Source: Nitrospiraceae bacterium
Lineage (GTDB): Bacteria; Nitrospirota; Thermodesulfovibrionia; UBA6902
NCBI GenBank assembly: GCA_003599425.1
Contig: QZKC01000078.1
Span: forward strand, 1-38,071
Direction: 5' to 3'
Length of the DNA stretch: 38,071 nucleotides
The notes under the pieces: model-generated
The model's input: the letters and a program-made list of their open reading frames with translations, nothing else
Databases searched by the model: none
Told to the model about the DNA's origin: nothing
Shown: positions 3,691 through 32,141 of the stretch, in pieces
Numbering within the stretch: the first letter of the stretch is position 1
Layout: every line of letters starts with the position of its first letter
Program-made: the position numbers and the translations under genes

Positions 3691-3715
3691 GCTGAAAGCT
3701 GATTGCTGAGCGCTG
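3691..3715. repeat. Heptad repeat array (GCTGAAA type), intergenic
   Basis: Units GCTGAAA, GCTGATT, GCTGAGC and a partial GCTG follow each other at exact 7-base spacing in the 234-base gap between the DUF72 gene and the ATPase gene. A looser copy (GCGGTCA, GCTCAAA) lies just upstream around 3651. No gene or clear promoter is visible in the gap. Confidence 0.7.
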
Positions 3716-3783
3716 TTTTTTATGTCGATTAGAGAAACTCAGGAACAGGCTGCCCTTGTGCCTTTGAAAAATTTGAAAGCATG

Positions 3784-4728
3784 TTACTTTCTTTTGGCAG
3801 TTTTGGAAGCGGGCTTCTTCGCAGATCTTTTTGCGGGCTTGGGTTTTTTAAGCGGCTTTGCGGAAGCCTTCTTGGGAGCAACCTTTTTGACGATCTTTTT
3901 CTTTTCGGCCTTTTTCTTTATGGGTGTTTTCTTCCCGGGTTGTTTCTTCTCAGCTTTTTTCTTTGGCTTCTCGGCCTGTTCCATAAGAGACTTCGGGAGA
4001 GTTGCTGCGAGAATTTGCTTGAGCTCTAAAGCATTTTTGGGGGCATTTGCCATCGCATCATTATTGAGGTAGAAATACACATCTTTGCCCTCTTTCAGAT
4101 ATTCCTTGATCTTTTTTGAATCCTGCTTCAGTTGCTCTGTTGTATAGCTTGAGGCATAATTGCCCCCTTCCCCGTGTCTCCGTATATAGAGGAAATTGGC
4201 AGTGGATGGGAGATTATCGATAAAATCCGGCCAGTCAGCAGTACATACGGCTATATTTGAGGCAGAGAGGAGATTGAATACCTTCTTTGTGAGCCAGCTC
4301 TTATGCCTGAATTCAAAGGCGTGACGCACTGGATACTGTTTCAGGTTCTCTATAAAATCCTCGAGATTCTTCATGTTCAGCCGCAAGTTCGGCGGCAGTT
4401 GCCAGAGGACCACGTGCAGTTTTTCAAGGAGCGGGGCTGTTGCGTTGAAAAAAGTTGAAAGCGGCAACTCCACGTCTTTCAGTTTTTTGACGTGAGTGAT
4501 AAACCTGCTCCCTTTCAGGCAGAATACAAAGTCAGGAGATGTTTCCTTGTACCATCTTTCAAAGGCCTCTTTTTTCAGGAGCCTGTAAAAGGTGACATTC
4601 AGCTCAACGGTATTGAATTTCCCCATGTAAAAGGAAAGCCACCATCTGTGCGGAAGGTCTTCAGGATAAAAGACCCCTTTCCAGGAATCATATAAAAAGC
4701 CGCTGCATCCTATCCAGTATTTCGGCAT
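3784..4728 (-). CDS. DUF72 (YecE-like) protein with a Lys/Ala/Pro-rich tail
   Basis: Residues 1 to about 240 match the DUF72 TIM-barrel family: the start WIGCSGFLYDSWKGVFYP, then FNTVELNVTFYRL, FCLKGSRFITH, LWQLPPNL and FEFRHKSW are characteristic. The biochemical role of DUF72 is not established. Residues about 249-314 form a low-complexity tail of repeated KK, AP, AKP and KKP motifs, similar in composition to histone H1 or bacterial histone-like tails, which suggests nucleic-acid binding. The tail is in frame with normal coding sequence, so it is part of the protein. The gene stands 56 bases upstream of mnmA's stop on the same strand. Confidence 0.85.
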   Translation of the reverse strand: MPKYWIGCSGFLYDSWKGVFYPEDLPHRWWLSFYMGKFNTVELNVTFYRLLKKEAFERWYKETSPDFVFCLKGSRFITHVKKLKDVELPLSTFFNATAPLLEKLHVVLWQLPPNLRLNMKNLEDFIENLKQYPVRHAFEFRHKSWLTKKVFNLLSASNIAVCTADWPDFIDNLPSTANFLYIRRHGEGGNYASSYTTEQLKQDSKKIKEYLKEGKDVYFYLNNDAMANAPKNALELKQILAATLPKSLMEQAEKPKKKAEKKQPGKKTPIKKKAEKKKIVKKVAPKKASAKPLKKPKPAKRSAKKPASKTAKRK

Positions 4729-4784: not shown

Positions 4785-5873
4785 TTATTCAATTATCCCC
4801 CCGCCGATAACTGTTTCTTGATCGTAAAACACGGCGCTCTGCCCGGGAGCCGGGGCCCAGACCGGTTCATCGCATTCAACAAGAACACGGTCAGGACCCT
4901 CAGGGGTTATTATTGCAGGGACTTCCCTCATAGTGGACCTGACCTTGATGTGTACCCTTATAGCATCCGGCAGGGCTTCAATAGCTATCCAGTTCAGGCC
5001 CGTCACGCTGAAGCGCTGCTTCATCGCATCTTCCTTTGCGCCGACAATGACCGTGTTCTTTTCCCTGTCTATGTGAACAACATAGTGTGGCTTCAGTGAG
5101 GGAATGCCGAGTCTTTTTCTCTGTCCAATAGTGTAAAACGCTATGCCTTTATGCTCACCAAGCCTCTTGCCGTCTGTGTCGACGATCAGGCCGGGGACCA
5201 GTGTTTCGGGCGAGGACCTCCTGATAAAGTCGGCATAGTTTTCATCTCCAACAAAGCAGATCTCCTGGCTTTCAGGCCTCAGCGCTGTTGCAAGACCGAG
5301 CTCGATTGCGATCTTGCGGGTCTTGTCTTTTGTAAGATCACAGAGGGGGAACAGGGTTTTTGAAAGCTCTTCCTGTTTCATTACGTAAAGGACATATGAC
5401 TGATCTTTTTTAGGGTCAGCGCCTTTCAGTAACAGGTGACGCGCAACGGGCAACTTCTGACTTCTGACTTCTGGCTTCTGCACTTTTTCAATCCTCGCAT
5501 AGTGCCCGGTTGCGACATAGTCAGCACCAAGCTCCCGGGCTTTTCTCAGGAGAAAGTCAAACTTGATATATCTGTTGCACAGGATGCACGGGTTCGGAGT
5601 CAATCCTTTCGAGTAGGACTCGCAGAAGCTCTCAATGACGTTTCTGTAAAAAGGGTCCCGCACGTCAACTGTATAATGTTCTATCCCCAGTTTCCCGGCA
5701 ACTGACCGTGCAAGTTCAATGGTCTCAACAGAGCAGCAGACATTTGAACTCTTCAGGTCCCGCCGGTCCCACAGCTCATAACTCAAGCCAGTAACTTCAT
5801 GGCCTTCTTTTTTGAGGAGACAGGCAGCAACAGAGGAATCAACTCCACCGCTCATGGCAACAAGCACTTTCAT
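4785..5873 (-). CDS. mnmA: tRNA-specific 2-thiouridylase MnmA
   Basis: A 362-residue enzyme that 2-thiolates the wobble uridine of tRNA-Lys, -Glu and -Gln, using ATP and sulfur from a relay. Motifs present are the PP-loop SGGVDSS (8-14), the catalytic Cys99 in NPCILCN, GHYAR (123-127), DPKKDQSYVL (153-162) and the second catalytic Cys206 in SQEICFVGD. These make it complete and probably active. The odd part is residues about 130-145, where homologues go almost directly from YARIE to LLLKG. Here about fifteen extra residues (VQKPEVRSQKLPVAR) are encoded by a 7-base tandem repeat array, in a surface loop by position. Confidence 0.96.
   Translation of the reverse strand: MKVLVAMSGGVDSSVAACLLKKEGHEVTGLSYELWDRRDLKSSNVCCSVETIELARSVAGKLGIEHYTVDVRDPFYRNVIESFCESYSKGLTPNPCILCNRYIKFDFLLRKARELGADYVATGHYARIEKVQKPEVRSQKLPVARHLLLKGADPKKDQSYVLYVMKQEELSKTLFPLCDLTKDKTRKIAIELGLATALRPESQEICFVGDENYADFIRRSSPETLVPGLIVDTDGKRLGEHKGIAFYTIGQRKRLGIPSLKPHYVVHIDREKNTVIVGAKEDAMKQRFSVTGLNWIAIEALPDAIRVHIKVRSTMREVPAIITPEGPDRVLVECDEPVWAPAPGQSAVFYDQETVIGGGIIE
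5454..5481. repeat. Heptad repeat array inside mnmA (CTTCTGA type)
   Basis: Four exact-spacing units, CTTCTGA twice, then CTTCTGG and CTTCTGC. It stays in frame within mnmA and encodes the inserted PEVRSQK-like segment. Confidence 0.9.
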
Positions 5874-11812: not shown

Positions 11813-11840
11813 AACTCTATGCTCTTAACTCTTGACTTCC
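11813..11840. repeat. Heptad repeat array between the SLBB and YjbH genes
   Basis: Units AACTCTA, TGCTCTT, AACTCTT and GACTTCC at 7-base spacing fill almost the whole gap between the two genes. It is the same family as the array in feoB. Confidence 0.8.
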
Positions 11841-14056
11841 TAAAACAGCTTCACAGCCACACCGGCAGTCACGGCTATCTGATACATGATCTGCGTTATA
11901 TCCTTTATCTCCCTGAGCCAGGCAATGCGGTCCAGTTTTTCCGGGACCGTGATCGTATCTCCAGGTTCGATCTCTTTTGCTTCATCCCCTGTCAGGGAAG
12001 AGACCTCCCACCTCGAGGAAACAACGTTCCAGTTCAGGAACCCGTTGGACAGTTTCCGTGCGGTACCGTCGGATTTCATGACATACACATTGTTCTCATC
12101 CGCGTACCGTGAATATCCGCCTGCGAGATTTATATAATCTTTGTATCCTGCTTTTTCAGAATAAATGAAGCTGCCAGATGACATTACTGAGCCCACGACA
12201 TTCACGACGTTATTTTTCATCGGGATGAAAAGGTTGTCGCCGTCCTCAAGCTCTATATCATATTCGTTGTTCTTCAAAAGCCTGAGATGCGCAAGCCTGA
12301 TGGACATTCTCCCTGTAGACTTGAGTTGTTTCAAAGATTCAACAAATTTTTTCCTCTGCTCCAGCTCAACCTTCCTTGCTTCGATCTCTTCCGGTGATAG
12401 CGCAGTTGATACCTGTTGCGATCCCACCACGAGCAGTTCCCTCTCAAGACGCGTGGTCATCTCTGCAAGGGCGTGCTGCTGCGCATCTCTTACTCTTGCC
12501 CTGGTGAAGATTGCTCCTCTCAGGTAAGCGTCGTCTGTATATCCTCCGGCCCGTTCGAGCACTGAAGACAGCCTCTCGCCTTTTTCAATGGTATATGTTC
12601 CGGGGAATTTCACTTCACCAAGGATGGATACTGTCTGATACAGTTTCCACCCAGGGACGTTTCGCACCAGAATATAGTCATTTATCTCCAGAGGGATGTT
12701 ATGCTGAGGGTCTCCTTCTGCTGCCTTGAATATATCAATTGCTATTTGTTCTGTAAGAGGGCCTGAAGGGGTGACCTTGACCCGCGTGAGTTCAGCCTTG
12801 TCCGATGCATAGTACATCAGACCCCCGGCCAGTGATATCACATCGCTTATTCTTGTTTTTCCCGATATGATCCCATAATCTCCTGCATTGGCCACTGCTC
12901 CTGCCAGGGTCACCGTATTTTTTGTGTCTATAACAGCAAATACCTTGATCAGATCCCCATCCTGGAGGAGAAAATTTTTCTCAGGATCATTGTCAATATT
13001 ATAAAAGTCCCCTTCAAAGAGCTTTCTGAACTGATGGTCTGCTATACGTTCTACCTGCACCCGCCCTTTAAAGGCAACGCTCGTGAGGCCGCCTGCCATT
13101 TGAATAAGGTCCAGGAGCCGTGTTTCTTCCCGAAGTTCATAGATCGCAGGATTTCTGACATTTCCTGCTATCCCTGCGAGCGGCCCGACAGAAGGAATAA
13201 AGATCACGTCCTCAGGCAGGAGCCTTGCATCTCTTGACTTGTCTCCTTTCAAAAGGAGATCATACATGTCAAAGTGCTCAACGAGGATACCGTTTCTCTT
13301 TAGCTGGATATCTCTCATAGTACCAGTCTTGCTTGGCCCCCCTGCTTGCAACAGGGCGTTGACGAGGGTTGAAAGAGAAGAAACAGTGTAGGCGCCAGGG
13401 TTCTGGGCGTTGCCCACAACATATACCCTCATCGTTCTTAAGGCCCCCATGCTCACATTCATTTCAAAGCCGGTGTAGTATTTGGAAAATTCCTTATGGA
13501 GTAGTTCTTTTAACTGTTCAAAGGTCAATCCTGTGATCCCGACAACCCCGATCTTAGGCAGGCTTACATTCCCGTCCCTGTCAACTGTCACGTGCCAGGC
13601 CCCTTCGATCTTTCCCCAGACAGTGATCCTTATTTCATCACCCGGGCCTACCACATACGACGGGCCTACAGGGACATTTGCAGATGGGACAAATGAAGAC
13701 GGCTCTTTGAAAAGATCATAACCAAACTGTCTGATATTGGTAGAAACGGAAGAGACAGATTCTCCGGCGATGAACTGTTCAAATTTGGATATTGCTTCTG
13801 AAGAAGGCCGTGTGCGCAGAGCAGGCTGCGCTGATCCCATCTGCTGCTCAGGCTGTTGCATGTTCTGCAGTTTTTCTGTCAGTTGAGGCTGTTGCAATAA
13901 AGGGTGTATTTCGGACGGCGCTTTCCCCTCGGCCTGCGACATCGAAGGAGCTACAGGGACGACCTGTATCTGTGCAGAAGCCGGAACCCAGGGTAATGCA
14001 AGAAGGACAAGAATAATGATACTAATAAAGGCCGAGACGCGTGTTTTTTTCTTCAT
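11840..14056 (-). CDS. Polysaccharide export protein with SLBB domains (Wza/GfcE-like)
   Basis: A 738-residue exported protein with a signal peptide (1-28, ending ASA before QIQ) and no lipobox Cys. A Poly_export domain begins near residue 127 (YVVGPGDEIRITVWGK ... VDRDGNVSLPKIGVV), followed by several SLBB repeats (VYVVGNAQNPGAYTV, IAGNVRNPAIYEL, VTLAGAVANAGDYGI, VSILGEVKFPGTYTI, VNVVGSVMSSGSFIY), so about five. Wza-type proteins form the outer-membrane channel for capsule or exopolysaccharide. It is the first gene of an operon with the YjbH-like gene. No glycosyltransferase or Wzc-type kinase is nearby. Confidence 0.9.
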   Translation of the reverse strand: MKKKTRVSAFISIIILVLLALPWVPASAQIQVVPVAPSMSQAEGKAPSEIHPLLQQPQLTEKLQNMQQPEQQMGSAQPALRTRPSSEAISKFEQFIAGESVSSVSTNIRQFGYDLFKEPSSFVPSANVPVGPSYVVGPGDEIRITVWGKIEGAWHVTVDRDGNVSLPKIGVVGITGLTFEQLKELLHKEFSKYYTGFEMNVSMGALRTMRVYVVGNAQNPGAYTVSSLSTLVNALLQAGGPSKTGTMRDIQLKRNGILVEHFDMYDLLLKGDKSRDARLLPEDVIFIPSVGPLAGIAGNVRNPAIYELREETRLLDLIQMAGGLTSVAFKGRVQVERIADHQFRKLFEGDFYNIDNDPEKNFLLQDGDLIKVFAVIDTKNTVTLAGAVANAGDYGIISGKTRISDVISLAGGLMYYASDKAELTRVKVTPSGPLTEQIAIDIFKAAEGDPQHNIPLEINDYILVRNVPGWKLYQTVSILGEVKFPGTYTIEKGERLSSVLERAGGYTDDAYLRGAIFTRARVRDAQQHALAEMTTRLERELLVVGSQQVSTALSPEEIEARKVELEQRKKFVESLKQLKSTGRMSIRLAHLRLLKNNEYDIELEDGDNLFIPMKNNVVNVVGSVMSSGSFIYSEKAGYKDYINLAGGYSRYADENNVYVMKSDGTARKLSNGFLNWNVVSSRWEVSSLTGDEAKEIEPGDTITVPEKLDRIAWLREIKDITQIMYQIAVTAGVAVKLF

Positions 14057-14287: not shown

Positions 14288-14378
14288 GGAGAGGTGTCCG
14301 AGTGGCCGAAGGAGCACGACTGGAAATCGTGTAGACGCTAATACCGTCTCGAGGGTTCGACTCCCTCCCTCTCCGCCA
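14288..14378 (+). tRNA. tRNA-Ser (anticodon GGA)
   Basis: The acceptor stem GGAGAGG pairs with CCTCTCC, then G discriminator and encoded CCA. The D arm, an anticodon loop CTGGAAA with anticodon GGA, a long class II variable arm and the T arm GAGGGTTCGACTCCCTC are all visible. It reads UCC/UCU. It stands directly upstream of the SRP RNA and dnaX, as in many bacteria. Confidence 0.97.
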
Positions 14379-14403
14379 TGCAAAATGTACGAAGCACATT
14401 TTG

Positions 14404-14438
14404 CAGCAATCAGCCGTCAGCGGTCAGTTTTCAGCTTT
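14404..14438. repeat. Heptad repeat array (CAGCNNT type) between tRNA-Ser and SRP RNA
   Basis: Five units at exact 7-base spacing: CAGCAAT, CAGCCGT, CAGCGGT, CAGTTTT, CAGCTTT. Confidence 0.85.
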
Positions 14439-14455
14439 AAGGAAAAAGTATTTAA

Positions 14456-14486
14456 GCTGGTCGCTTAACGCTGAGAGCTTACAGCT
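14456..14486. repeat. Heptad repeat array (GCTNNNN type) before SRP RNA
   Basis: Units GCTGGTC, GCTTAAC, GCTGAGA, GCTTACA and partial GCT at 7-base spacing. It is roughly the inverse complement of the array at 14404-14438, so the pair could fold. Confidence 0.8.
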
Positions 14487-14493
14487 ATTTTCG

Positions 14494-14603
14494 GTCGGGC
14501 CTTTGGGCCCTGTGCAACGGTACGCTGCAAACTCCGCCAGGTCCGGAAGGAAGCAACGGTAAGCAGTTGTCCTGGGTGCCGCAGGACTACCTGAAGGCCC
14601 GGC
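14494..14603 (+). ncRNA. ffs: Small signal recognition particle RNA (4.5S type)
   Basis: The conserved SRP core is present: CAGGTCCGGAAGGAAGCA in the 5' half and GGGTGCCGCAGG in the 3' half. The ends pair (TCGGGCCTT at 14495-14503 with AAGGCCCGG at 14594-14602). It binds Ffh and targets membrane proteins. The exact ends are estimated from the terminal helix. The position between tRNA-Ser and dnaX is a common arrangement. Confidence 0.92.
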
Positions 14604-14690: not shown

Positions 14691-16427
14691 ATGAGTTATA
14701 TTGTTCTTGCAAGAAAATGGCGGCCCCAGGGCTTTGATGACCTTGTCGGCCAGGAGACTGTGGTCACCACCCTGAAAAACGCTCTGTCAGGCGGAAAGAT
14801 AGCGCATGCCTATCTCTTCTCCGGCCCGCGAGGTGTAGGGAAGACCTCGTCAGCGCGTATCCTTGCAAAGGCTTTGAACTGTGAACAGAGGGCAGACAGC
14901 GAACCCTGCGGGCAGTGTCAGAACTGTAAAGCCATAACAGATGGATACGCTGTAGATGTTCTGGAGATCGACGGGGCCTCAAACAACAGCGTTGAGGCAG
15001 TCAGGGAGCTGAGAGAAACAGTAAAATACGCGCCGTCGGGCGGCAAGTACAAGATATATATAATCGATGAAGTGCACATGCTGAGCGCCTCTGCTTTTAA
15101 TGCTCTTCTGAAGACCCTTGAAGAGCCTCCTCCACATGTGGTTTTTATATTCGCAACCACGGAACCGAAAAAAGTGCCTGCAACGATCCTGTCCAGGTGC
15201 CAGCACCATTCTTTCCGCAGGGTCACAAAAGGCAGAATAAAGGAGCAACTCAGGAAGATCACAGATGCAGAGAAGATAACGATAAAAGACGCTGCGCTTG
15301 ACATGATTGCAAAGGCAGCGGACGGCAGCATGCGGGACGCACTTACCCTTCTGGACCAGGCATACTCCTTCAGTGATGAGATATCGGAGAAAGAACTTCA
15401 GTCGCTGCTGGGACTTCCTGAGAGCGAGATCATTTCCGGGCTTACCGAAAACATTCTCAGGGGAGATATCGCGCAAACGCTTTCCATAATAAAAGAACTG
15501 ACCGACAGGGGAAGTGATCTCCGTCAGATGGCTAAGGAGCTTGTCGAGCAGTTCAGGAACATTGCTGTTGCAAAGATAACAGATGGCGCTGCTGCGCTTC
15601 TTGAATTTACGGATGAGGAGGTACAGCACCTGCGTGATAGCGCACGAGATATCAGCATCGAAGAACTGACGCTACTCCTGACAGAACTTCTGAGGGTTGA
15701 GGCTGAGGTACGCACTGCTGCAAATCCGAGATATGTCCTTGAGCTTGGACTTCTCAGGACGTCTTTTGTTAAAGGGATGACTTCCGTTGAACAGCTTTTG
15801 AAAATGATCGGTGAGCCGGAAGGCCAGCACTATGTCCGGGAATCTTCACCAAAAACATCAGCTTCCCGGGACACGCAAAAAAGTAGCGGTCACAGCGAGA
15901 CAGTTTCTCGCAATTCAGTTGCAGAGATCAACAAACCTGGCGGGGCGGCTTCTGACAAAAGGCCTGTTCCCCAGCCTGAAAAAAAAACAGAACCGATACA
16001 GCAACATGAAACTGATGGTAGATCAGCAGTCATCAATAAAGAAGAGATCTGGCAGGATCTGCTTGCACATCTTGATGCTACAGACCATCTCCTGGCGTGC
16101 AAACTTGCAGAGGCTAAGCTCGTTAATCTTACTGCAGCAGAGATGACAATAAGTTTTAACGGCGGGATGTCATTTCTTGCTGACCTGATAAAAAAGAACG
16201 CCCCTGTCATTGAGCCCTTGCTTCGGAAGCTCAGCGGTCACAGTATAAGACTGAAAGTGCTTTCATTGCCTCAGAATGGGGTCAAAAGGGACCTGAATAC
16301 AATAAAGGAGCAGGTCGCTGCGGAACCTATCGTACAGGATGCAATGAGGATATTTAACAGCTCCCTGATAAATGTGAAACCGCTGGATGAAAATGCTAAT
16401 GATAATGATGTAGAGAGTAGAGAGTAA
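14691..16427 (+). CDS. dnaX: DNA polymerase III subunits tau/gamma, DnaX
   Basis: A 578-residue clamp-loader ATPase. Visible are Walker A GPRGVGKT (45-52), the zinc-binding cysteines C64, C73, C76 and C79, the Walker B-type DEVH (126-129) and SRC in the sensor-1 region (168-170). Domains I-III end near residue 365; the tail is the tau-specific part, with a divergent Ser/Lys/Glu-rich linker (about 375-440). A run of nine A (15979-15987) in that linker could cause slippage to a shorter gamma-like form. The last codons (VESRE) come from a TAGAGAG heptad array. It is first in the dnaX-ybaB-recR operon. Confidence 0.97.
   Translation: MSYIVLARKWRPQGFDDLVGQETVVTTLKNALSGGKIAHAYLFSGPRGVGKTSSARILAKALNCEQRADSEPCGQCQNCKAITDGYAVDVLEIDGASNNSVEAVRELRETVKYAPSGGKYKIYIIDEVHMLSASAFNALLKTLEEPPPHVVFIFATTEPKKVPATILSRCQHHSFRRVTKGRIKEQLRKITDAEKITIKDAALDMIAKAADGSMRDALTLLDQAYSFSDEISEKELQSLLGLPESEIISGLTENILRGDIAQTLSIIKELTDRGSDLRQMAKELVEQFRNIAVAKITDGAAALLEFTDEEVQHLRDSARDISIEELTLLLTELLRVEAEVRTAANPRYVLELGLLRTSFVKGMTSVEQLLKMIGEPEGQHYVRESSPKTSASRDTQKSSGHSETVSRNSVAEINKPGGAASDKRPVPQPEKKTEPIQQHETDGRSAVINKEEIWQDLLAHLDATDHLLACKLAEAKLVNLTAAEMTISFNGGMSFLADLIKKNAPVIEPLLRKLSGHSIRLKVLSLPQNGVKRDLNTIKEQVAAEPIVQDAMRIFNSSLINVKPLDENANDNDVESRE
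15979..15987 (+). promoter_or_regulatory. A9 slippery run in dnaX (candidate programmed slippage site)
   Basis: Nine consecutive A cover GAA AAA AAA A (codons 430-433). One extra A in the transcript, or a -1 ribosomal slip on A AAA AAA, leads to seven new residues (NRTDTAT) and a TGA at 16007-16009, giving 439 residues. That is close to E. coli gamma (431). A small hairpin CTGAT/ATCAG follows at about 16012-16026. Confidence 0.6.
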
Positions 16428-16471
16428 GGGTTGTATCTCTCTATTTTTTGCTCTTTACTTTCTACTTTGTG
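16411..16471. repeat. Inverted heptad repeat arrays between dnaX and ybaB
   Basis: TAGAGAG twice (16411-16424), overlapping the end of dnaX, faces units CTCTCTA, TTTTTTG, CTCTTTA, CTTTCTA, CTTTGTG (16437-16471). The two halves are roughly complementary and could form a hairpin before the ybaB ribosome-binding site. Confidence 0.8.
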
Positions 16472-16484
16472 AAGAGGAGGTTAT

Positions 16485-16814
16485 ATGAATAAAAAAATGC
16501 TTGGCGACCTGATGAAACAGGCCCAGAAAATGCAGCAGGAAATGGGAAAGATTCAGGAAGAATCGAAAAAGAAGACCGTTGAAGCATCAGCCGGAGGCGG
16601 CATGGTCGTTGCCGTTGCAAACGGTGCGATGGAAATTGTCTCTTTAAAGCTCGAGCGCGATGTCATTAATCCTGATGATGCAGAAATGCTCCAGGACCTG
16701 ATCATTGCCGCGATCAATGAGGCCCTCCGCAGGGCCCAGCAGATGGTATCAGAGGATATGGGCAAGTTGACAGGAGGTATGAATCTTCCGGGCCTGGGGA
16801 ATATGTTCGGATAA
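16485..16814 (+). CDS. ybaB: YbaB/EbfC nucleoid-associated protein
   Basis: A 109-residue DNA-binding protein with the usual family layout: N-terminal MLGDLMKQAQKMQQEMGKIQEE helix, a central VEASAGGGMVVAVANGAMEIVSLKLE strand region and a C-terminal helix ending in a Gly/Met-rich tail. It is a dimeric DNA-binding protein encoded between dnaX and recR in most bacteria. An AGGAGG ribosome-binding site lies 5 bases before the ATG. Heptad arrays flank it on both sides. Confidence 0.95.
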   Translation: MNKKMLGDLMKQAQKMQQEMGKIQEESKKKTVEASAGGGMVVAVANGAMEIVSLKLERDVINPDDAEMLQDLIIAAINEALRRAQQMVSEDMGKLTGGMNLPGLGNMFG

Positions 16815-18519: not shown

Positions 18520-19851
18520 ATGTTAGATAGCAGAGCACAGACCGGCGTATCAAAATCTCTGATAATGCAGTCTGTGTTCTGTGTTCTTTGCTCAGTGCTT
18601 TTTCTTCCCTTAGTATCATACGCTTCCGGAGATGAACTCGTTTTGCAGGACCTGATCGACGAGGCCTTAAGGAACAACCACGAGATACTTTTTTCCCGTA
18701 CCAAAGAACAATCTGCCGGGTTCAGGGTACCCCAGGCAAACAGTCTTCCCGATCCCATGCTCATGGTCGGTTATATGAATGACGGAGTCAGAGACCTGTA
18801 TACATTCGATGAAGAAATGGCCCAGGATTCACAGTGGATGTTCTCAGTCTCGCAGATGTTCCCCTTTCCCGGCAAACTGCCTCTGAAATCTGAAATGGCC
18901 CTGAGGGACGCGGAAAGCAGACAGGAGATGACCGACGCAATCAGGCTCAGGACTGTAGCAAGGGTGAAAGAGCTTTACTATGACCTGTTGTTCTCATACA
19001 AGAACCTCGACCTTTTGAAAGACCGGAGCGATCTCTTTGAGAGGATCGAAGACGCCGCCCTTGCCAGATATTCAACAGGGATGGCTCCGCAGCAGGAAGT
19101 GCTCATGGCCCAGGCCGAAAAATTCATGATTATGGAAAAAGAAGAGATGCTAAGCCAGAAAATACAGTCCCTTGAGGCCATGCTGAATTCCACTGTCGGC
19201 AGGAATGCTGACTCTTCCCTCGGAAGGCCGCAGGAACTACCCCGGTCCTCATACGGTTTTACAATGGATGAACTGGTGCATGCAGCGGTCAGCAACTCGC
19301 CTGAGATAAAGGCTCAGCAGAAAATGATCGCAGCGGCTGATGCAAAGGTGCGGATGGCGGAAAGGGAATACTATCCTGATATCACTATGAGCGCAAGTTA
19401 TTTTGCGAAAAATAAATATTTTCAGGATATGTGGAGCCTTACAACAAGCATCAATATACCCATTTTTTACAAAACGAAACAGAGTCAGGCCGTACTTGAA
19501 GCGCAATCAATGCTCTCTGAGGCAGACCATGAGCTGCAATCCATGCAATTGATGATAGCATCCGCTGTAAAGGACAACTATTCCATGCTCAGGTCATCGC
19601 AAAATCTCATGGCGTTATATAAGGAGGCGCTCGTTCCCAAAACGTATCAGGATTATGAGGCAGCGCTTTCAGGATATACCGCAGGAAAAGTCGAGGCAAT
19701 GACTGTGATAAACAGGCTGAAAGCACTCATTGATTATGAAATTTCCTACTGGCAGCAGTTCACTGAAGGAGAGAAGGCAATCGCGAGACTTGAGGCGATA
19801 ACGACAGTAAGCAGTCAGCGGCAAGCAATCAGCATACAAGGAGAAAAATAA
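18520..19851 (+). CDS. cusC: TolC/CusC-family outer-membrane efflux protein
   Basis: A 443-residue outer-membrane efflux duct of the TolC family with the two-fold repeat of the family: LIDEALRNNHEILFSRTKEQ near the N-terminus and LVHAAVSNSPEIKAQQKMIAAADAKVRMAEREYYPDIT in the second half. The start ATG follows GGAG at 7 bases. The N-terminal export signal is unusual: SVFCVLCSVLFL is encoded by a 7-base tandem repeat (18571-18598). The C-terminus (VSSQRQAISIQGEK) is encoded by another array (19810-19837). The operon order csoR-ytkA-cusC-cusB-cusA shows its role in metal efflux. Confidence 0.88.
   Translation: MLDSRAQTGVSKSLIMQSVFCVLCSVLFLPLVSYASGDELVLQDLIDEALRNNHEILFSRTKEQSAGFRVPQANSLPDPMLMVGYMNDGVRDLYTFDEEMAQDSQWMFSVSQMFPFPGKLPLKSEMALRDAESRQEMTDAIRLRTVARVKELYYDLLFSYKNLDLLKDRSDLFERIEDAALARYSTGMAPQQEVLMAQAEKFMIMEKEEMLSQKIQSLEAMLNSTVGRNADSSLGRPQELPRSSYGFTMDELVHAAVSNSPEIKAQQKMIAAADAKVRMAEREYYPDITMSASYFAKNKYFQDMWSLTTSINIPIFYKTKQSQAVLEAQSMLSEADHELQSMQLMIASAVKDNYSMLRSSQNLMALYKEALVPKTYQDYEAALSGYTAGKVEAMTVINRLKALIDYEISYWQQFTEGEKAIARLEAITTVSSQRQAISIQGEK
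18571..18598. repeat. Heptad repeat array in the cusC signal sequence (TCTGTGT type)
   Basis: TCTGTGT twice, then TCTTTGC and TCAGTGC, at exact 7-base spacing. They encode the hydrophobic core of the export signal. Confidence 0.9.
19810..19837. repeat. Heptad repeat array at the 3' end of cusC (AGCNNNN type)
   Basis: AGCAGTC, AGCGGCA, AGCAATC, AGCATAC. It encodes the last residues of CusC and ends just before the ribosome-binding site of cusB. Confidence 0.85.
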
Positions 19852-19853
19852 CT

Positions 19854-21023
19854 ATGAAAACAAAGCCAATAATAATGTTGGAGGTAATAGTATCTTTATT
19901 ATTTTTCTTCAATGCCCCCCCTTTATTTGCTCAGGTTCATCAGCATGAAATGCCTGCAAAAGAGACCGCTCCGCAACAGGTTGAGACAGAAGAAGCTGAA
20001 GAACCACCGACAATTGAGATAGAACCTGAAAGGCAGCAAATGATCGGCGTGAGGATTTTTGAGGTCTCCGCAAAACCGATGAACAAGATCATCAGGACTG
20101 TAGGACGGATAGGATATGATGAGAGGAAGCTTGCCACTGTCAACACAAAGTTCGAAGGATGGATAGAAAAGCTCTATGTTGATTACACAGGCCGCCCGGT
20201 TAAACAGGGGGAGCCTTTGGCGGAAATATATAGTCCTGAGCTGTATGCCACGCAGCAGGAATATCTGAATATATTAAAGTGGAATGAATCAGCTGCCAGT
20301 GGCCAGCAACCAGCAGTCAGCTCAATGCTTTCAAAAGATGCCGGGAAATTAGTTGACGCAGCCAGGCAGAGACTGAAGCTGTGGGACATTTCTGACCAGC
20401 AGATCGAAAAGATCAAATCGACCGGAGAGCCGGTAAGGACCCTCACTATCTACAGCCCTGTCTCCGGCTATGTGATAGAGAAGATGGCTGTCCAGGGGAT
20501 GAGAGTGATGCCGGGAGAAAAGCTGTTCGATATTGCTGACCTGTCAAGGCTCTGGATTTTTGCAGACATTTATGAGTATGAGCTGCCTCACGTGAAAACA
20601 GGACAGAAGGCATTGATCACACTCAGTTATATGCCCGGAAAGGAATTCCCCTCAACGATTGACTACGTTTATCCTTCAGTCTCCAATGCTACAAGAACTG
20701 CAACTGTAAGATTCGAGATACCAAATTATGGTGGACAGCTCAAACCTCAGATGTACACGAATGTGGAGATAAAGATCGAGCTCGGCAGCAAACTTGTCGT
20801 GCCTGATGATGCTGTTATTGACACAGGAATAAGACAAATCGTATATGTGGATAGAGGAGAAGGATACTTTGAGCCGAGAGAAATCAGGACAGGGCTGAAG
20901 ACCGATGGATTTACAGAGGTCGTAAGGGGACTGAAGACAGGCGAAAAGGTAGCCTCCTCAGCAACCTTCCTTATCGATTCAGAAGCACAGTTAAAGGGAG
21001 TAACGCCGTTAAAAAGGGATTAG
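19854..21023 (+). CDS. cusB: CusB-family periplasmic adaptor of heavy-metal RND efflux
   Basis: A 389-residue membrane fusion protein. A signal peptide or anchor (about 1-27) precedes a His/Met-containing N-terminal segment (QVHQHEMPAKE). Then come the lipoyl/barrel halves (KLATVNTKFEGWIEKLYVDYTGRPVKQGEPLAEIYSPELYATQQEYL ... TIYSPVSGYVIEKMAVQGMRVMPGEKLFDIADLSRLWIFADIYEYEL) and a C-terminal KTGEKVASSATFLIDSEAQL, all typical of CusB. Residues about 145-158 (ESAASGQQPAVSSM) in the hairpin region come from a heptad repeat array. It begins 3 bases after cusC. Confidence 0.93.
   Translation: MKTKPIIMLEVIVSLLFFFNAPPLFAQVHQHEMPAKETAPQQVETEEAEEPPTIEIEPERQQMIGVRIFEVSAKPMNKIIRTVGRIGYDERKLATVNTKFEGWIEKLYVDYTGRPVKQGEPLAEIYSPELYATQQEYLNILKWNESAASGQQPAVSSMLSKDAGKLVDAARQRLKLWDISDQQIEKIKSTGEPVRTLTIYSPVSGYVIEKMAVQGMRVMPGEKLFDIADLSRLWIFADIYEYELPHVKTGQKALITLSYMPGKEFPSTIDYVYPSVSNATRTATVRFEIPNYGGQLKPQMYTNVEIKIELGSKLVVPDDAVIDTGIRQIVYVDRGEGYFEPREIRTGLKTDGFTEVVRGLKTGEKVASSATFLIDSEAQLKGVTPLKRD
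20290..20324. repeat. Heptad repeat array inside cusB (CAGCNNN type)
   Basis: Five units at exact spacing: CAGCTGC, CAGTGGC, CAGCAAC, CAGCAGT, CAGCTCA. It is in frame and encodes the ASGQQPAVSS segment. Confidence 0.9.
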
Positions 21024-25051: not shown

Positions 25052-27259
25052 TTAAATCCCGATTCCCAATAATTTTCCGCCCTGGTAGATAGTTAATGCC
25101 ACAACCCAGGCCAAAACCATCTGATATCCGAATGCGACACCGAACCACTTCCATGTGCCGAATTCGTGTTTCATGGCGATCGCAACTACAACACACGGCA
25201 TATAGAGAAGGACAAATGCCATAAAGGCATACGCTGTAAGCGGTGTGAATGCCTTTTGTATGACCGTCCTCAGTCCGGAAACGCTGTCGTCCTCCTCTGC
25301 TGAAATGCTTGTAACACCAAAAGTTGCAAAGACATTTCTTATGGAATCACCGACAGCGGCCGTAAAAGATGCCCCTATCTCCCGGATATCCTCTGATACA
25401 GTGGTCTCCTCCTGCTCTTCCTGTTCAACAGCGTATATTTCAGCCATGGTACCAACAACTATTTCCTTTGCGATCAAGCCGGTAACAAGCGCTGATGCAG
25501 CTTCCCAGTTCCCAAATCCAATAGGCTCAAGCACGGGAGCTATTACTTGCCCGGTCTTTCCAAGATATGAGTCCTTTTTGCTCTCAACGCCCCATGGGAG
25601 ATTCAGCAGGAACCACACGATTATTGATACCGCAAAAATATAAGTCCCGGCTTTTATCAGAAAGTGTTTCCCTTTTTCCCATGTATGGATCAAAAGGTTT
25701 CTGAGCGACGGCATCCTGTAAGGCGGAAGCTCCATGATGAACATAGGCGACTCCCCTCTGAAAAGAGTCCGTTTGAATATAACACCCATCAGGATCGCAA
25801 GGGCGATCCCCATAACGTACATTGACCAAAGGACGGTGCCGGCGTGGGTGGTGAAAAATGCTCCTATGAAGACGACGTACACAGGAAGCCTTGCTCCGCA
25901 TGACATGAGAGGCAGTAGCAGTGCCGTGAGTGCCTTGTCCCGTGGATTTTCAAGGGTACGTGTTGCGTATATACCCGGTACATTGCATCCAAAGCCCAAA
26001 AGCATAGGGATAAAGGATTTCCCGTGCAGTCCCATGCTGTGCATGGCCCTGTCCATTACAAAGGCCGCCCTTGCCATATAGCCGCTGCCTTCAAGGAATG
26101 TGATAAAGAACATCATCGCGAATATCACAGGTACGAATGCAAGCACAAAACCAACTCCTGCGAGGACTCCTTCAGTGGCCAGCGATGCGACCCATAAAGG
26201 GCCATTGACCGCTGTGATGGCCTTTGCAGCCAGTCTGCTGAGCGGTCCTGCAGTGGCCCCGTCTATCCAGTCGCCAAAAGGTTGTGAAAGGTCAAACGTA
26301 AGTTTAAATACCAGCCACATTGCGGCAAGAAATATCGGGATCCCCAGAAACCTGTTTAACACCACTTTGTCGATCTTTTCAGTCAGTTCCATTTTTCTGA
26401 TCTCGGGCCTTTTTACCATTTCGCGAGTAAGGCCGGCAGCAAATGCATAGCGTTCATCTGCCATAATTGACTCGATATCATCACCATGTGCCCTGGTGAG
26501 ATGTTTTGTTGCCTGCTCAATGAGTGAAATGTCAATATCGAGACCAGCTTCCTTCATCATATGGGAGTCGCCTTCCATGACCTTGAAGGCAAGCCATCTC
26601 ATCGGATATCTTTTCTGAAGCGATGAATGGTGCTCGTTTAAATGGGTCTGAATGAAGGTTGCAGCAGATTCAATATCTTCACTGTAATGCAGTTGCTTCG
26701 GGGCATATCGTGACGGATTTGCAGCTGCTTCCGTTGCTGCTTTTAAAAGATCATTCAAACCAGACTTCTTTGTGGCTACTGTTGGGATGACCGTGATCCC
26801 TAGCATCTCCTCCATCGCCTTTGTGTTTATCCTGTAACCTTTTTGCTCTGCTTCATCGTATATATTGAGGGCAATTACTACAGGGATGCCGAGTTCCAGC
26901 ATCTGTATTGTGAGATAGAGGTTTCTTTCAATATTCGTGGCATCAACTACATTTATGATAACGTCAGGCTTTTCTGTTATAAGATAGTCCCTTGCGATGA
27001 TCTCTTCCTGTGTATACGGGCTCAGACTGTACGTCCCGGGCAGGTCAACAAGCTTTATCTTGCTGCCTTCGTATTCGAACATGGCAGATTTCTTTTCAAC
27101 CGTGACGCCCGGCCAGTTGCCGACATAAAGCCTGCTGCCGGCAATAGCGTTTATGAGGGTGGACTTGCCTGAATTAGGATTGCCTGCAACTGCAACGGTA
27201 ATGGTCTTTCTTTTTGTTTCTCTTAACTCTGAACTCTTAACTCCTAACTCTAAACTCAT
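25052..27259 (-). CDS. feoB: Ferrous iron transporter FeoB
   Basis: A 735-residue inner-membrane Fe(II) transporter with an N-terminal G domain. Motifs are G1 GNPNSGKST (26-34), G2 region VGNWPGVTVEKK (46-57), G3 DLPGTYSL (72-79) and NIYD as the G4 equivalent, followed by the paired Gate regions (GSGYMARAAFVMDRAMHSMGLHGKSFIPMLLGFGCNVPG) and C-terminal spans. FeoB proteins usually begin only two or three residues before ITVAVAGNPN. Here about sixteen extra residues (MSLELGVKSSELRETK) are encoded by a heptad repeat array lying between the ribosome-binding site and the expected start. The ATG overlaps the feoA stop. Confidence 0.97.
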   Translation of the reverse strand: MSLELGVKSSELRETKRKTITVAVAGNPNSGKSTLINAIAGSRLYVGNWPGVTVEKKSAMFEYEGSKIKLVDLPGTYSLSPYTQEEIIARDYLITEKPDVIINVVDATNIERNLYLTIQMLELGIPVVIALNIYDEAEQKGYRINTKAMEEMLGITVIPTVATKKSGLNDLLKAATEAAANPSRYAPKQLHYSEDIESAATFIQTHLNEHHSSLQKRYPMRWLAFKVMEGDSHMMKEAGLDIDISLIEQATKHLTRAHGDDIESIMADERYAFAAGLTREMVKRPEIRKMELTEKIDKVVLNRFLGIPIFLAAMWLVFKLTFDLSQPFGDWIDGATAGPLSRLAAKAITAVNGPLWVASLATEGVLAGVGFVLAFVPVIFAMMFFITFLEGSGYMARAAFVMDRAMHSMGLHGKSFIPMLLGFGCNVPGIYATRTLENPRDKALTALLLPLMSCGARLPVYVVFIGAFFTTHAGTVLWSMYVMGIALAILMGVIFKRTLFRGESPMFIMELPPYRMPSLRNLLIHTWEKGKHFLIKAGTYIFAVSIIVWFLLNLPWGVESKKDSYLGKTGQVIAPVLEPIGFGNWEAASALVTGLIAKEIVVGTMAEIYAVEQEEQEETTVSEDIREIGASFTAAVGDSIRNVFATFGVTSISAEEDDSVSGLRTVIQKAFTPLTAYAFMAFVLLYMPCVVVAIAMKHEFGTWKWFGVAFGYQMVLAWVVALTIYQGGKLLGIGI
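27220..27257. repeat. Heptad repeat array at the feoB 5' end (CTCTTAA type)
   Basis: Five units and a partial one at exact 7-base spacing: CTCTTAA, CTCTGAA, CTCTTAA, CTCCTAA, CTCTAAA, CTC. It includes the feoB start codon region and encodes the extra N-terminus. Confidence 0.92.
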
Positions 27260-27780: not shown

Positions 27781-28596
27781 TTAAAATCTCGCTGCCAGTC
27801 CTGCAAGAACTGCCAGATCTGTTTCAGGTTTGTTAAGTCCGGCCTTGATGCCGATATCAATATCAAGATCCTCTGAAACTGAATAGATCAATCCGCCCAG
27901 GATAAAAGCAGGTTGCGTTTTTGAATTTTTGTCAGAGTTTCTCTCCATGCCTACATTTGCTACAGCAGAAAGATTTTCAGAAACTTCTTTTTCTGCCGCA
28001 AGTGATGCATACCATAGGTCCTTTCTGTTTGAAGATTTGTCTTCCTCAAGTTTGTATTCATTGCGCAAATAACCCAGGTTCATATGTAATGACAGTACCT
28101 CCATTTCCTGTGTTGCAATGAACATGAGAGCATATGATGGCCTGCCGTTACCCAGGCCTTTTTCTTCATCACCGGTAGGTAATGTGATGCCTGGTTTAAG
28201 AGCAAAACTTAACCCCTCTTTTTCAAACAGTCTCCACTTTAGTTCAATTGACGTATCTCCAATCCCATCCTCATCGGATACTGTTTCCCCGTCTTCTTTT
28301 GTTTTAGACCACAGATAGGGCATGCCAAGGACTACATCTGCATTGTCAGTAAAGCCGTATGAATATATAACAGAAACTTCTATGCCGGCATCTTCAGTTG
28401 ATACATTATCCTGTCTTTCCTTATCAGAAGCATATTCACTGTTGATCTCGATCTGGGATTTGCCCTTTCCCTGTGTTCCGGTGTCATCAGTTATGAGAGG
28501 ATGTGCTGCATAAGAAACCGTGAACAGTGAAAAACAGACAGTGAATATCAGGAAGAACAATGTCATAACTTTTGAACTCTTAACATCATACTTCAT
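27781..28596 (-). CDS. Porin-like outer-membrane protein (Phenol_MetA_deg type), first gene of the feo operon
   Basis: A 271-residue exported beta-barrel protein. The mature start AAHPLITDDTGTQGKGKSQIEINSEY and the alternating amphipathic strands (YGFTDNADVVLGMPYLW, GDTSIELKWRLFE, FALKPGITLPTGDEEKG) are characteristic of the family annotated as MetA pathway of phenol degradation, a name that says little about function. It is the first gene after a Fur box and 19 bases before feoA, so it may be an outer-membrane route for iron; inference. The signal peptide core (IFTVCFSLFTVSYA) is encoded by heptad repeats. AAGGAGG precedes the ATG. Confidence 0.8.
   Translation of the reverse strand: MKYDVKSSKVMTLFFLIFTVCFSLFTVSYAAHPLITDDTGTQGKGKSQIEINSEYASDKERQDNVSTEDAGIEVSVIYSYGFTDNADVVLGMPYLWSKTKEDGETVSDEDGIGDTSIELKWRLFEKEGLSFALKPGITLPTGDEEKGLGNGRPSYALMFIATQEMEVLSLHMNLGYLRNEYKLEEDKSSNRKDLWYASLAAEKEVSENLSAVANVGMERNSDKNSKTQPAFILGGLIYSVSEDLDIDIGIKAGLNKPETDLAVLAGLAARF
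28520..28547. repeat. Heptad repeat array in the porin signal peptide (GTGAAAA type)
   Basis: GTGAACA, GTGAAAA, ACAGACA, GTGAATA at exact spacing. A looser CTCTTAA-like array lies at about 28564-28584 within the same signal sequence. Confidence 0.75.
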
Positions 28597-30781: not shown

Positions 30782-30893
30782 GGTGTTCTGATCTAAAAGG
30801 TTATTATTCTAATACCAGATAAAAGCAAAGAATTCAAGAGGTGCTGGCTTAAACGATTATATCGGGACTATGAACCCTTGAAAAAACCTGCTT

Positions 30894-32141
30894 TCAGAAT
30901 TCACGTAGTTGCCTGAGATATCCCTGATAGTTCCTTTGAGCCTCTTCCATGCTGTCACCGCCAAATTTTACGAGCAGGCTGTCAGCGATGGCGAGAGCTG
31001 TAACAGCTTCTCCGATGACAGAAGCTGCAGGCACAGCGCATACATCCGATCGTTCATACGCAGCCTTGAAAGGTTTCCTGCTCAAAATATCAATAGAGGA
31101 CAGAGGGGTTTTCAGGGTAGGGATCGGTTTCATTGCCGCCCGGATGATTACCGGCATCCCATTGCTCATCCCGCCTTCAATACCGCCTGCATTGTTTGTC
31201 TTTCTGTAAAATCCAAATTGTTCGAAAGACTTTTGCACTTTTGCACTTCTGCGCTTTTGCGCTTCGTAAAATATCTCATCCATGACCTCAGAGCCATGTT
31301 TTCTGCTCATCTCAAAACCAAGTCCTATCTCAACGCCTTTTATCGCCTGAATACTCATCAGAGAACATGTGAGCTTTGCGTCAAGCTTCTTGTCCCACTG
31401 TATGTAGCTGCCAAGACCGGGAGGGACACCAAGCACAACTACTTCAAAAACCCCTCCAATAGTATCCCCTTTTTTCATTGCATGGGTGATCTTGCCGATC
31501 ATTTTTTTCTCAACCTTTTCATCAGGACACCTTACAGGAGACGCTTCTGCCTTTTTGAAAATAGATAGAAGTGCTTTAAAGTCTGTATTCTGTATCCTGT
31601 GTTCTTTACTCTGTCCTTGCCCCCCTATCTCAGTAACATAGCTTATTATTTTTATATTAAATTCAGATAAAAATTTCTTTGCCACGGCCCCTGCTGCGAC
31701 CCGCGCTGCAGTTTCCCGTGCGCTTGAACGCTCAAGTATGTTCCTGATGTCATGGGTATTATATTTCAGTGCGCCGGAAAGGTCTGCATGTCCGGGGCGT
31801 GGCCTGGTAACGGGTTCCATATTCCGGTTCCCTGAACCCTGAACCCTGATGTTTTGCTCCGGATTCATTATCTCACACCAGTTAGCCCAATCCCTGTTTT
31901 CGATAAGCAGAGTAATCGGAGAACCGAGGGTCTTTCCATGCCGGATGCCGGACAAGAGTTGTACAGTATCTGATTCTATCTTCATCCGGCCCCCTCTGCC
32001 ATAGCCTTTTTGCCTTCTCGCAAGGTCGGGGTTAATGTCCGCAGCAGAGAGGGAGAGATTTGCCGGTATTCCGTCAATCACGCATGCTAATGCCTGTCCG
32101 TGCGATTCTCCTGAAGTGAGGTATCTGAGTTTTTCAAGCAT
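30894..32141 (-). CDS. aroC: Chorismate synthase AroC with repeat-derived insertions
   Basis: A 415-residue enzyme making chorismate from EPSP with FMN. Signatures seen are [63 protein letters not shown] and [13 protein letters not shown]. The protein is longer than the usual 360-390 residues. Three segments explain the excess: residues about 97-107 ([11 protein letters not shown]), 177-190 ([11 protein letters not shown]) and 294-305 ([12 protein letters not shown]). All three are encoded by tandem repeats with 7- or 8-base period and lie in variable loops by position. Catalytic segments are intact, so the enzyme should work. It is the first gene of the pair with aroKB. Confidence 0.95.
31229..31266. 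repeat. Octamer repeat array inside aroC (ACTTTTGC type)
   Basis: ACTTTTGC twice, ACTTCTGC, GCTTTTGC, then GCTTCG. The period here is 8, the only exception found. It encodes [12 protein letters not shown]. Confidence 0.9.
31582..31616. repeat. Heptad repeat array inside aroC (TCTGTAT type)
   Basis: TCTGTAT twice, CCTGTGT, TCTTTAC, TCTGTCC at exact 7-base spacing. It encodes [10 protein letters not shown]. Confidence 0.92.
31822..31849. repeat. Heptad repeat array inside aroC (ACCCTGA type)
   Basis: TTCCGGT, TCCCTGA, then ACCCTGA twice at exact 7-base spacing. It encodes [10 protein letters not shown]. Confidence 0.9.

Follow-up and report, generated by a model that had tools for sequence, protein, structure and literature searches.

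Heptanucleotide repeat arrays of a Nitrospiraceae genome as probable arms and gene-less derivatives of foldback elements with PF05635 genes

Contig QZKC01000078.1 of a Nitrospiraceae bacterium (Nitrospirota, Thermodesulfovibrionia, UBA6902; assembly GCA_003599425.1), taken here as the whole stretch of 38,071 nucleotides (positions 1 to 38,071 of the forward strand; below, the window), carries numerous short tandem arrays with a period of 7 nt and units that differ from site to site. Among 80 DnaX loci retained from a search, the best named ones belong to Syntrophales, other deltaproteobacteria and Nitrospira (37-51% identity), in line with a Nitrospirota-like bacterium. These arrays are probably arms, remnants or gene-less derivatives of foldback mobile elements that bear a gene of the four-helix-bundle family PF05635 (23S-rRNA-IVP/S23). 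A complete element would occupy about 0.5 kb and consist of a left arm with about 3-5 units of 7 (or 8) nt in tandem, one PF05635 gene and a right arm repeating the left one in inverted orientation. Comparisons of sequences show an excess of the period, inverted pairing of arrays, a gene placed between arms of the same period and co-inheritance of arm and protein; they also show presence or absence of arrays at orthologous sites, differing arrays at one site and insertions or deletions (indels) of whole units. An earlier interpretation of the window made from its letters alone (the sequence-only reading) had supposed a common generating process behind the arrays. This idea is supported: such arrays make up the arms of a recognisable element with a PF05635 gene.

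The position of the gene between the arms can be seen in an insertion specific to genome G003, with an element of 454 nt, where heptad arms GGGGTTN and NAACCCC surround a minus-strand PF05635 gene, and the same site in its sister species G006 holds a short unrelated palindrome. The family was detected in 54 of the 61 genomes that make up the class sample versus none of 14 control genomes, and in 29 of 43 named genomes outside the class sample, mostly from other phyla. To estimate how regularly its genes are flanked by arrays we used 100 loci (70 from relatives and 30 from named genomes), which were high-scoring or hand-picked and do not represent all matches; at least 100 nt was required on each side, and 5 loci with a short flank were left out. 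The same period (7 or 8) was registered in both flanks of 67 out of 95 loci (51/69 in relatives and 16/26 in named genomes). The value for relatives was obtained with profile-located genes; other gene borders gave 56/70, and the lower figure was used. Random intervals had period 7 in both flanks in 3 of 700 and 2 of 600 cases and period 8 in none of the 700 and none of the 600, while neither period was common to both flanks of control genes (mnmA/recR, 0/46; Y1_Tnp, 0/20). In addition, in 65 of 69 loci the two flanks of the PF05635 gene were mutually inverted at a level exceeding the 95th percentile of random sequence. Strict arm segments had a median length of 4.0 heptads or 3.4-3.5 octads. 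Named genomes whose loci have one of these periods include those of Syntrophaceae, Smithella, Nitrospira lenta, Desulfobacterales, Chloroflexi, Bacteroidetes, Omnitrophota, Gemmata, Verrucomicrobiota and Lentisphaeria. The association between PF05635 genes and the arrays is stated with high confidence. Eukaryotic foldback transposons, such as Tetris and Galileo, have inverted arms composed of tandem repeats, and this trait, terminal inverted repeats made of short tandem units, recurs in the 67 of 95 loci with a common period. Unlike them, the elements considered here have a period of 7 or 8 nt and a gene for a four-helix bundle, and no transposase was found in the protein of the resident element L187, the only one scanned.

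Some PF05635 loci have flanks of another kind, with other periods (13 in L214, 6 in L272, 12 in L288) or with strong pairing and no period (L276). Loci L218 and L219 (G003:C36 and G006:C65) encode a PF05635 protein that is identical in both sister species and has no arms of period 7 or 8; it is possibly a domesticated, stationary copy.

Arm and protein tend to be inherited together. On a tree of 98 proteins (two of the 100 were too short and were left out), which has few columns and in which near copies help the result, the distribution of period 7 (46 rows) and period 8 (21 rows) required 10 changes versus a shuffled mean of 18.2, and none of 500 shuffles was as low. Arm sequences were then compared in pairs of loci that belong to different genomes and show no similarity at 300-700 nt outside, a score of at least 18 being taken as a shared arm. 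Such sharing was found for 54 of 98 pairs at protein identities of 55% or more versus 14 of 1770 pairs below 35%, and it extends across taxonomic groups (L228/L280 involves a delta bacterium, L229/L274 a Bacteroidetes). Among eight aligned pairs, similarity breaks off where the arms end on the outside, or close to it, and L223/L211 and L253/L221 show this most clearly; in L215/L208 outside sequence is common on one side, and other close pairs with common outside sequence are best read as vertical or syntenic. Thus, both the unit of the arm and its period tend to follow the phylogeny of the protein. Each lineage of elements would then possess its own unit, and units would differ between sites at a fixed period because unit and period are inherited with the protein.

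The periodicity itself is far above expectation. At the lowest threshold the window contains 8 segments with lag 7, whereas 20 dinucleotide shuffles gave 0.10 on average and 20 local ones 0.05, and at the highest threshold 3 versus 0.00; any other period from 4 to 24 gave 0-3 segments at the lowest threshold. A genome sample of 433,131 bases from the same 2.9-Mb assembly (20 stretches plus the window), compared with one shuffle, contained 34 period-7 segments versus 5, and 18 versus 0 at the next threshold. Period 8 was also enriched (14 versus 1), as were multiples (period 14, 20 versus 2; period 21, 17 versus 3; period 24, 13 versus 2), and lesser excesses appeared for period 6 (11 versus 4), 9 (6 versus 0) and 15 (8 versus 1). 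The sequence-only reading would have been abandoned if period-7 arrays were no commoner than in shuffled sequence, and in this sample they are clearly commoner. An excess of heptanucleotide tandem arrays is also a trait of the short tandemly repeated repetitive sequences (STRR) of cyanobacteria, which are dispersed heptad arrays. Arrays and arms registered in the window are listed below; strands are those of the host genes, since the arrays themselves have none assigned, and partner scores refer to inverted partners.

3652-3715: GCTGANN heptads (3685-3715) and, upstream of them, a weaker inverted segment, in the gap between two minus-strand genes; lag-7 score 9, left partner 12.0, exactly the 99th percentile of random windows; RNA fold of the 3640 region marginal (z -1.96, 8/200 shuffles as good); the 3685 unit matches an arm of element L247, equalled by 0/20 permuted controls.
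5453-5485: ACTTCTG heptads, single arm, in frame within mnmA (4785-5873, minus strand; Pfam tRNA_Me_trans), in the loop after GHYAR; lag-7 score 18; no convincing match among the sampled element arms (7/20 permuted controls as good).
11813-11842: degenerate heptads of ACTCTTA type between yjbH-like and polysaccharide-export open reading frames (ORFs); weak alone, lag-7 score 6, attained by 2.9% of random windows.
14404-14436: left arm of CAGCNGT heptads downstream of tRNA-Ser (14288-14378); lag-7 score 8; right partner 13.0, exceeding the 99th percentile of random windows (12); RNA fold of 14395-14496, z -2.99.
14454-14488: right (inverted) arm of the 14404 palindrome; left partner 13.0, lag-7 score 4.
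16410-16426: left arm GTAGAGA overlapping the 3' end of dnaX (tandem repeat finder, TRF, and lag-7 scan); 0/100 random flanks pair as well, and in a coarser test the partner scored 10.0, the random 95th percentile; no special match in the sampled element arms (8/20 controls as good).
16437-16467: right arm of the dnaX-ybaB palindrome; RNA fold of 16400-16480, -26.8 kcal/mol, z -3.61.
16819-16834: left arm AGTAGAG between ybaB and recR (TRF and lag-7 scan); partner 12.0; no special match (12/20 permuted controls fit element arms as well).
16857-16881: right arm of the ybaB-recR palindrome; RNA fold of 16812-16892, -30.9 kcal/mol, z -5.00.
18527-18541: left arm AGCAGAGCACAGA; RNA fold of 18525-18595, -31.8 kcal/mol, z -5.97.
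18571-18590: right arm TCTGTGT near the start of an outer-membrane efflux protein ORF (18520-19851); lag-7 score 10; fits an arm of element L200 (0/20 controls equal).
19810-19835: degenerate heptads (CAGCNRT) in the 3' end of ORF 18520-19851, immediately ahead of a CusB-like gene; weak alone, lag-7 score 5, attained by 6% of random windows.
20288-20325: degenerate CAGCNRT heptads within the HlyD/CusB-like gene 19854-21023 (Pfam HlyD_D23); weak alone, lag-7 score 6 (2.9% of random windows).
27220-27257: ACTCTTA heptads at the 5' end of the feoB ORF (25052-27259, minus strand; Pfam FeoB); lag-7 score 16; best match an arm of L226 (1/20 controls as good).
28520-28552: degenerate GTGAACA heptads within ORF 27781-28596 (minus strand), near its 5' end; weak (lag-7 score 6), with a left partner of 11.0 that falls between the 95th and 99th percentiles of random windows; no stable RNA fold here (z +1.45).
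31229-31264: ACTTTTGC octads, single arm, in frame within chorismate synthase (30894-32141, minus strand), loop 3; lag-8 score 19; a 13-residue stretch there is missing in PDB 1q1l; no special match in element arms (15/20 controls as good).
31582-31614: TCTGTAT heptads in frame in loop 2 of chorismate synthase; lag-7 score 9; best match an arm of L211 (1/20 controls as good).
31822-31849: CCCTGAA heptads in frame in loop 1 of chorismate synthase; lag-7 score 13; six residues there are missing in PDB 1q1l; no special match of the array (31822/31830) in element arms (5/20 controls fit as well).

TRF detected period-7 arrays in the window at 3685, 5453, 16410, 16819, 16858, 18571, 18882, 27220, 31582, 31830 and 31938 and one period-8 array at 31229. 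The sequence-only reading had counted at least fourteen arrays of strict 7-base period and one of period 8. The octad at 31229 is clear, and 8 of the 15 sites (3691, 5454, 16411, 16821, 18571, 27220, 31582 and 31822) are clear heptads, while six are weak alone. Five of the latter (11813, 14404, 19810, 20290 and 28520) were matched by 1.4-6% of random 56-nt windows of the same sequence, and the sixth, 14456, for which 18% of random windows were as good, is the inverted partner of 14404 and no direct array. A common core YTGA or YTAA, noticed at the same time, fits some units and by eye is missing from AGTAGAG, ACTTTTGC and TCTGTGT. No universal core was found by eye across the printed arms; AG occurs once per unit in many 5' arms, and several have none. 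On the other hand, the inverted partner arms at 16437-16467, 16857-16881 and 18527-18541 and the location of three arrays in frame within one gene, that of chorismate synthase, were not mentioned in that reading. The dispersed heptad arrays are real, and a common process behind them is well supported. Beside the palindrome at tRNA-Ser, the segment 14494-14606 resembles by eye a bacterial signal recognition particle (4.5S) RNA gene, so that the heptad palindrome would lie between tRNA-Ser and this candidate 3' of it.

Inverted partners accompany many arrays. In the genome sample, 15 of 34 heptad arrays had a partner within 130 nt that was matched by at most 5 of 100 random flanks. In a larger sample (1,598,263 bases of the same genome and its relatives) a partner closer than 150 nt was found for 77 of 308 arrays versus 5 of 600 random segments, and 28 of the 308 had a partner farther off (about 14 expected by chance). 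Three sets from the 28 rows of far inverted pairs were inspected: the pair of L170 enclosed a PF05635 gene, those of L296 and L324 ORFs that by eye resembled host genes. Judged by this pairing, many of the arrays are one arm of a foldback.

The relation of gene-less arrays to elements was estimated for 48 heptad and octad arrays of the bacterium's own genome, none of which lies beside its two PF05635 genes; paired arms are included in this set, so not all of its members are independent. Half of them (24/48) matched some element arm better than all 20 unit-permuted controls, while about 2 would do so by chance; 30 had at most two controls as good (about 7 expected), and 18 were unremarkable. 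Miniature inverted-repeat transposable elements and other non-autonomous derivatives have termini in common with a gene-bearing element, and the same trait was found in these 24 of 48. Among the gene-less octads, seven arrays fit the AGGCACAA clade, which includes the resident element L187. Among the nine arrays of the window examined in this way two beat all permuted controls and two were equalled by one. We infer that gene-less arrays derive from PF05635 elements; for each particular array of the window such an origin is assumed with moderate confidence. Gene-less copies, i.e. short hairpins and single arms, would far outnumber genes and survive where they are tolerated: in intergenic gaps, at operon junctions and in loops of essential enzymes.

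Comparison of orthologous sites in relatives shows that arrays are present in some species and absent in others, just as the sequence-only reading suggested to check. Of 30 loci taken for each gene, 4 of mnmA, 2 of recR and 4 of chorismate synthase could not be parsed, and unit types at these sites were read by eye. The ybaB-recR junction has no insert in 19 of 28 parsed genomes and has one in 9, including the genome of the window; the inserts are heptad hairpins of differing unit, nonamer hairpins (CACAGATTN) and palindromes of TGTCATTCCCGCTTG type, by eye sometimes nested. The loop of MnmA after GHYAR comprises 10-13 residues in some species and by eye contains in-frame heptad arrays with differing units in at least 10 of 26. 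ORF 30894-32141 (415 aa) is chorismate synthase (Pfam Chorismate_synt), and its loop 2 is 22-24 residues long in 23 of 26 genomes and has a heptad array (lag-7 score at least 8) in 19 of 26, with at least five kinds of unit by eye (ACAGAAC, CAGCNGT, AGAGTYA, GGGTCAG, GAGCCGG); in G016 it is 16 residues long and has no array. In sister species, compared also by means of a simpler pattern that located the loop in 20 of 30 loci, loop 2 carries ACAGAAC in G003 and another palindrome in G006, CAGCNGT in G032 and a different, more degenerate array in G019. Genomes G003 and G006, about 90% identical across most aligned blocks, also differ by inserts of 101 and 162 bp, which by eye are whole hairpins, and by three-unit indels, one of 21 bp in heptads and one of 24 bp, read by eye as octads with a weak lag-8 score of 6. 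Elements appear to have been repeatedly inserted into tolerant loops of essential enzymes, and their mobility is assumed with good confidence. The idea of an active element, also put forward in the sequence-only reading, agrees with the PF05635-bearing element and with arrays present or absent at orthologous sites, current activity being putative.

The protein of L187 belongs to PF05635 (Pfam, E 4e-43) and also approaches, below the cut-off, the family bAvd PF22296 (E 1.6e-9, 38.7 bits versus 40). Its AlphaFold2 model consists of four helices with a pLDDT of 96.2. The best Foldseek matches of this model are 2gsc (TM score 0.91) and then 2rld, with five chains each; it also matches Avd, the accessory protein of diversity-generating retroelements (DGRs) (4dwl_D, TM 0.78, E 3.3e-3, probability 1.00), and chains of the DGR ribonucleoproteins 8ube (8ube_D, TM 0.79), 8ub7 and 8ub8, which we take to be Avd subunits. 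Judged from the model, the fold is thus that of the DGR protein Avd. A sequence-profile search of PDB with the PF05635 protein listed no Avd entry; homology between 4DWL and 2GSC is stated in PMC10053308, and the title of the 2GSC paper cited there mentions five four-helix bundles. A nucleoprotein role is plausible, because the fold matches Avd and DGR ribonucleoprotein chains. The reverse transcriptase domain RVT_1 was found in 24 of 61 genomes, not in the genome of the window and in none of 12 genomes with at least five PF05635 genes, in which respect the elements differ from DGRs. A resident reverse transcriptase as a general requirement was rejected on these grounds, the assemblies being incomplete; a link to reverse transcription, in trans or ancestral, may exist. 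Four PF05635 loci elsewhere that lie near an RVT_1 match are candidate DGRs, and two of them, L233 and L235, still have arms of period 7 and 8, respectively.

A number of observations weigh against the origin of the arrays from PF05635 elements. There is no shared period 7 or 8 at 28 of 95 PF05635 loci, no detectable inverted partner for 203 of the 308 arrays and no special element-arm match for 5 of the 9 window arrays (5453, 16410, 16819, 31229 and 31830). Density of arrays does not correlate with PF05635 genes per Mb (rho 0.18, p 0.25; 42 genomes), so it was rejected as a simple function of their number; six genomes with no detected PF05635 gene have 10 arrays in 220 kb, the other 36 have 202 in 1378 kb. 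Both PF05635 genes found in the genome of the window are octad-armed, yet heptads outnumber octads among the gene-less arrays there 34 to 14, and to account for the heptads one has to appeal to past losses or to the 10% of the assembly that is missing. Neither a target-site duplication nor a clean empty site was obtained, sister species being about 10% divergent and the same sites having been used more than once; a clean empty site was sought in vain for L189 in G006 and L246 in G025. The Pfam scan of one protein, that of L187, revealed no enzyme domain, only PF05635 and the sub-cut-off bAvd. Four PF05635 genes lie 0.3-3.1 kb from an RVT_1 match on the same strand (G005:C330, L233; G007:C192, L235; G005:C80; G018:C28), and because of this part of the family may be ordinary DGR Avd.

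Other explanations were considered. The arrays could be ordinary minisatellites produced by replication slippage with no element involved, 7 nt being a favoured slippage length of the polymerase; slippage, there followed by transfer, was among the processes named in the sequence-only reading. Heptanucleotide repeats are over-represented in many bacteria, for which slippage was proposed (PMC4679880, PMC4692102), and both the three-unit indels between sister species and the unpaired majority of arrays are in line with it. However, slippage does not account for partners within 150 nt (77/308 versus 5/600), for sister-species inserts read by eye as whole hairpins, for a gene between equal-period arms at 67 of 95 loci or for arms in unrelated surroundings that are alike mostly when the protein is common. 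Inverted pairing and the gene between the arms led us to reject pure slippage, which is very unlikely, and to retain it as a secondary process altering the number of units. Hairpins with heptads could also be built by some other enzyme, PF05635 genes just riding in existing arrays or inserting into them. In favour of this are an array density that does not follow the gene count, gene-less copies far in excess (308 arrays and one gene in 1.6 Mb) and a predominance of heptads in a genome whose two detected genes are octad-armed; the rise of PF05635 genes per Mb with the count of Y1_Tnp transposases in 61 relatives (rho 0.51) would suit it too. Nevertheless, period and unit tend to track the protein tree, no Y1_Tnp gene out of 20 has such flanks, the far inverted pairs inspected enclosed PF05635 (L170) or host-like ORFs (L296, L324), and PF05635 counts are not correlated with those of RVT_1 (rho 0.13) or DDE_Tnp_1 (rho 0.09), so we consider another builder unlikely.

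A particular enzyme of this kind would be the RAYT (Y1_Tnp) transposase, known to act on repetitive extragenic palindromes (REP) and bacterial interspersed mosaic elements (BIME). The arrays are palindromic, intergenic and often located at operon junctions, two Y1_Tnp genes are present in the genome of the window, and the correlation just mentioned points in the same direction. Against it, period 7 or 8 was found in both flanks of none of the 20 Y1_Tnp genes, 18 of which have inverted flank pairs of another sort with scores of at least 15 (for L350 the pairing reaches 29.0 with no shared period), and Y1_Tnp is lacking in five genomes that contain at least three PF05635 genes. The lack of period-7/8 flanks among the 20 genes was the ground for rejecting REP/RAYT palindromes, an interpretation that can hardly be true. 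The foldback element with a PF05635 gene is therefore preferred.

How such elements would move can be proposed with low confidence. The protein, a pentamer in solved relatives, might bind the folded transcript or single-stranded DNA with about one unit per subunit, the complex of protein and arm being the moving entity, and cutting and copying would be left to a host or co-resident enzyme. A ring with one unit per subunit could suit the arms, because their medians are 4.0 heptads or 3.4-3.5 octads; the trp RNA-binding attenuation protein (TRAP) is a ring analogue that takes one repeat unit per subunit. One can go further and suppose a distinct class of mobile elements with period-coded recognition, in which an Avd-like pentamer engages about five arm units and moves them with no transposase or reverse transcriptase of its own, lineages swap the unit and keep the period, and arrays at fixed sites are overwritten by other lineages. 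This we regard as possible and tentative rather than probable.

Several known systems resemble the elements in part. Intervening sequences (IVS) of 23S rRNA also have a gene of the same family, the S23 ORF, in the loop of an inverted-repeat stem. The IVS of Coxiella, 428 nt with a 28-bp stem, is similar in size to the elements described here, and the S23 ORF of stem-flanked IVS was suggested to serve mobility (PMC4990558). Unlike IVS, the arms here are tandem heptads or octads, and genomes contain several genes along with numerous gene-less arrays. Location in 23S rRNA was rejected for the 20 of 100 PF05635 loci tested, which gave no Rfam rRNA match at the gathering threshold, though many of them extend about 0.6 kb per side, where partial rRNA could escape. 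The opinion that nothing similar had been described for organisms of this type needs correcting. In Geobacter metallireducens, class 3 sites comprise five tandem heptanucleotides MTYCTGA at 15 of 16 sites, drawn paired on opposite strands, class 1 sites are octads, and classes 1-3 are entitled "global regulator binding sites" (PMC2700814). They are probably the same kind of thing as the arrays of the window; the portion of that paper devoted to them interprets them as IHF/HU regulator sites and mentions no gene between arms. Heptamer repeats were also reported in Beggiatoaceae (TAACTGA), Xanthomonas and Nostoc (GGGNATC) and cyanobacteria, likewise as dispersed arrays, some inverted or within ORFs (PMC4679880, PMC4692102). 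Those studies, in the sections available, follow one unit type and report no link to PF05635, whereas here many units have one period. Rickettsia palindromic elements (RPE) are known for in-frame insertion into protein genes (PMC10969869), and arrays in frame within protein genes were found here as well. In titles and abstract openings among the listed literature matches for PF05635, S23, Avd and four-helix-bundle proteins, a search mostly outside subscription papers, no link to tandem-repeat arms appeared.

If the arms belong to the protein, two unexplained facts would be joined, the over-representation of heptanucleotides in many bacteria and the wide distribution of PF05635 with no known function outside DGR-like systems. 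The repeats would be footprints of mobile elements, the intervening sequences of 23S rRNA one special case of them, and the DGR accessory protein would gain a relative possibly working without reverse transcriptase. The loops of chorismate synthase and MnmA would provide a natural record of insertion into essential enzymes, and one small protein with a 35-nt array would suffice for a direct test of what moves IVS elements.

Palindromes of other types occur at the same sites. Hairpins of period 9 (CACAGATTN) share junctions with heptad hairpins (L139, L142, L144, L145; also L169:526-549 and L174:18346-18369) and can enclose other nested palindromes, and a flank with period 9 was also noticed at one PF05635 locus (L245). 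Such hairpins possibly represent a nonamer branch of these elements. Palindromes of TGTCATTCCCGCTTGTCGGGAATC and CCCCCCTTNNNAAGGGGGG types vary between sister species (L138, L139 and several G006/G003 indels) and are possibly REP-like, because Y1_Tnp genes have non-heptad inverted flanks. Those of CCCCCCTTNNNAAGGGGGG type were also observed in the loops of MnmA (L113) and chorismate synthase (L355, L366, L371).

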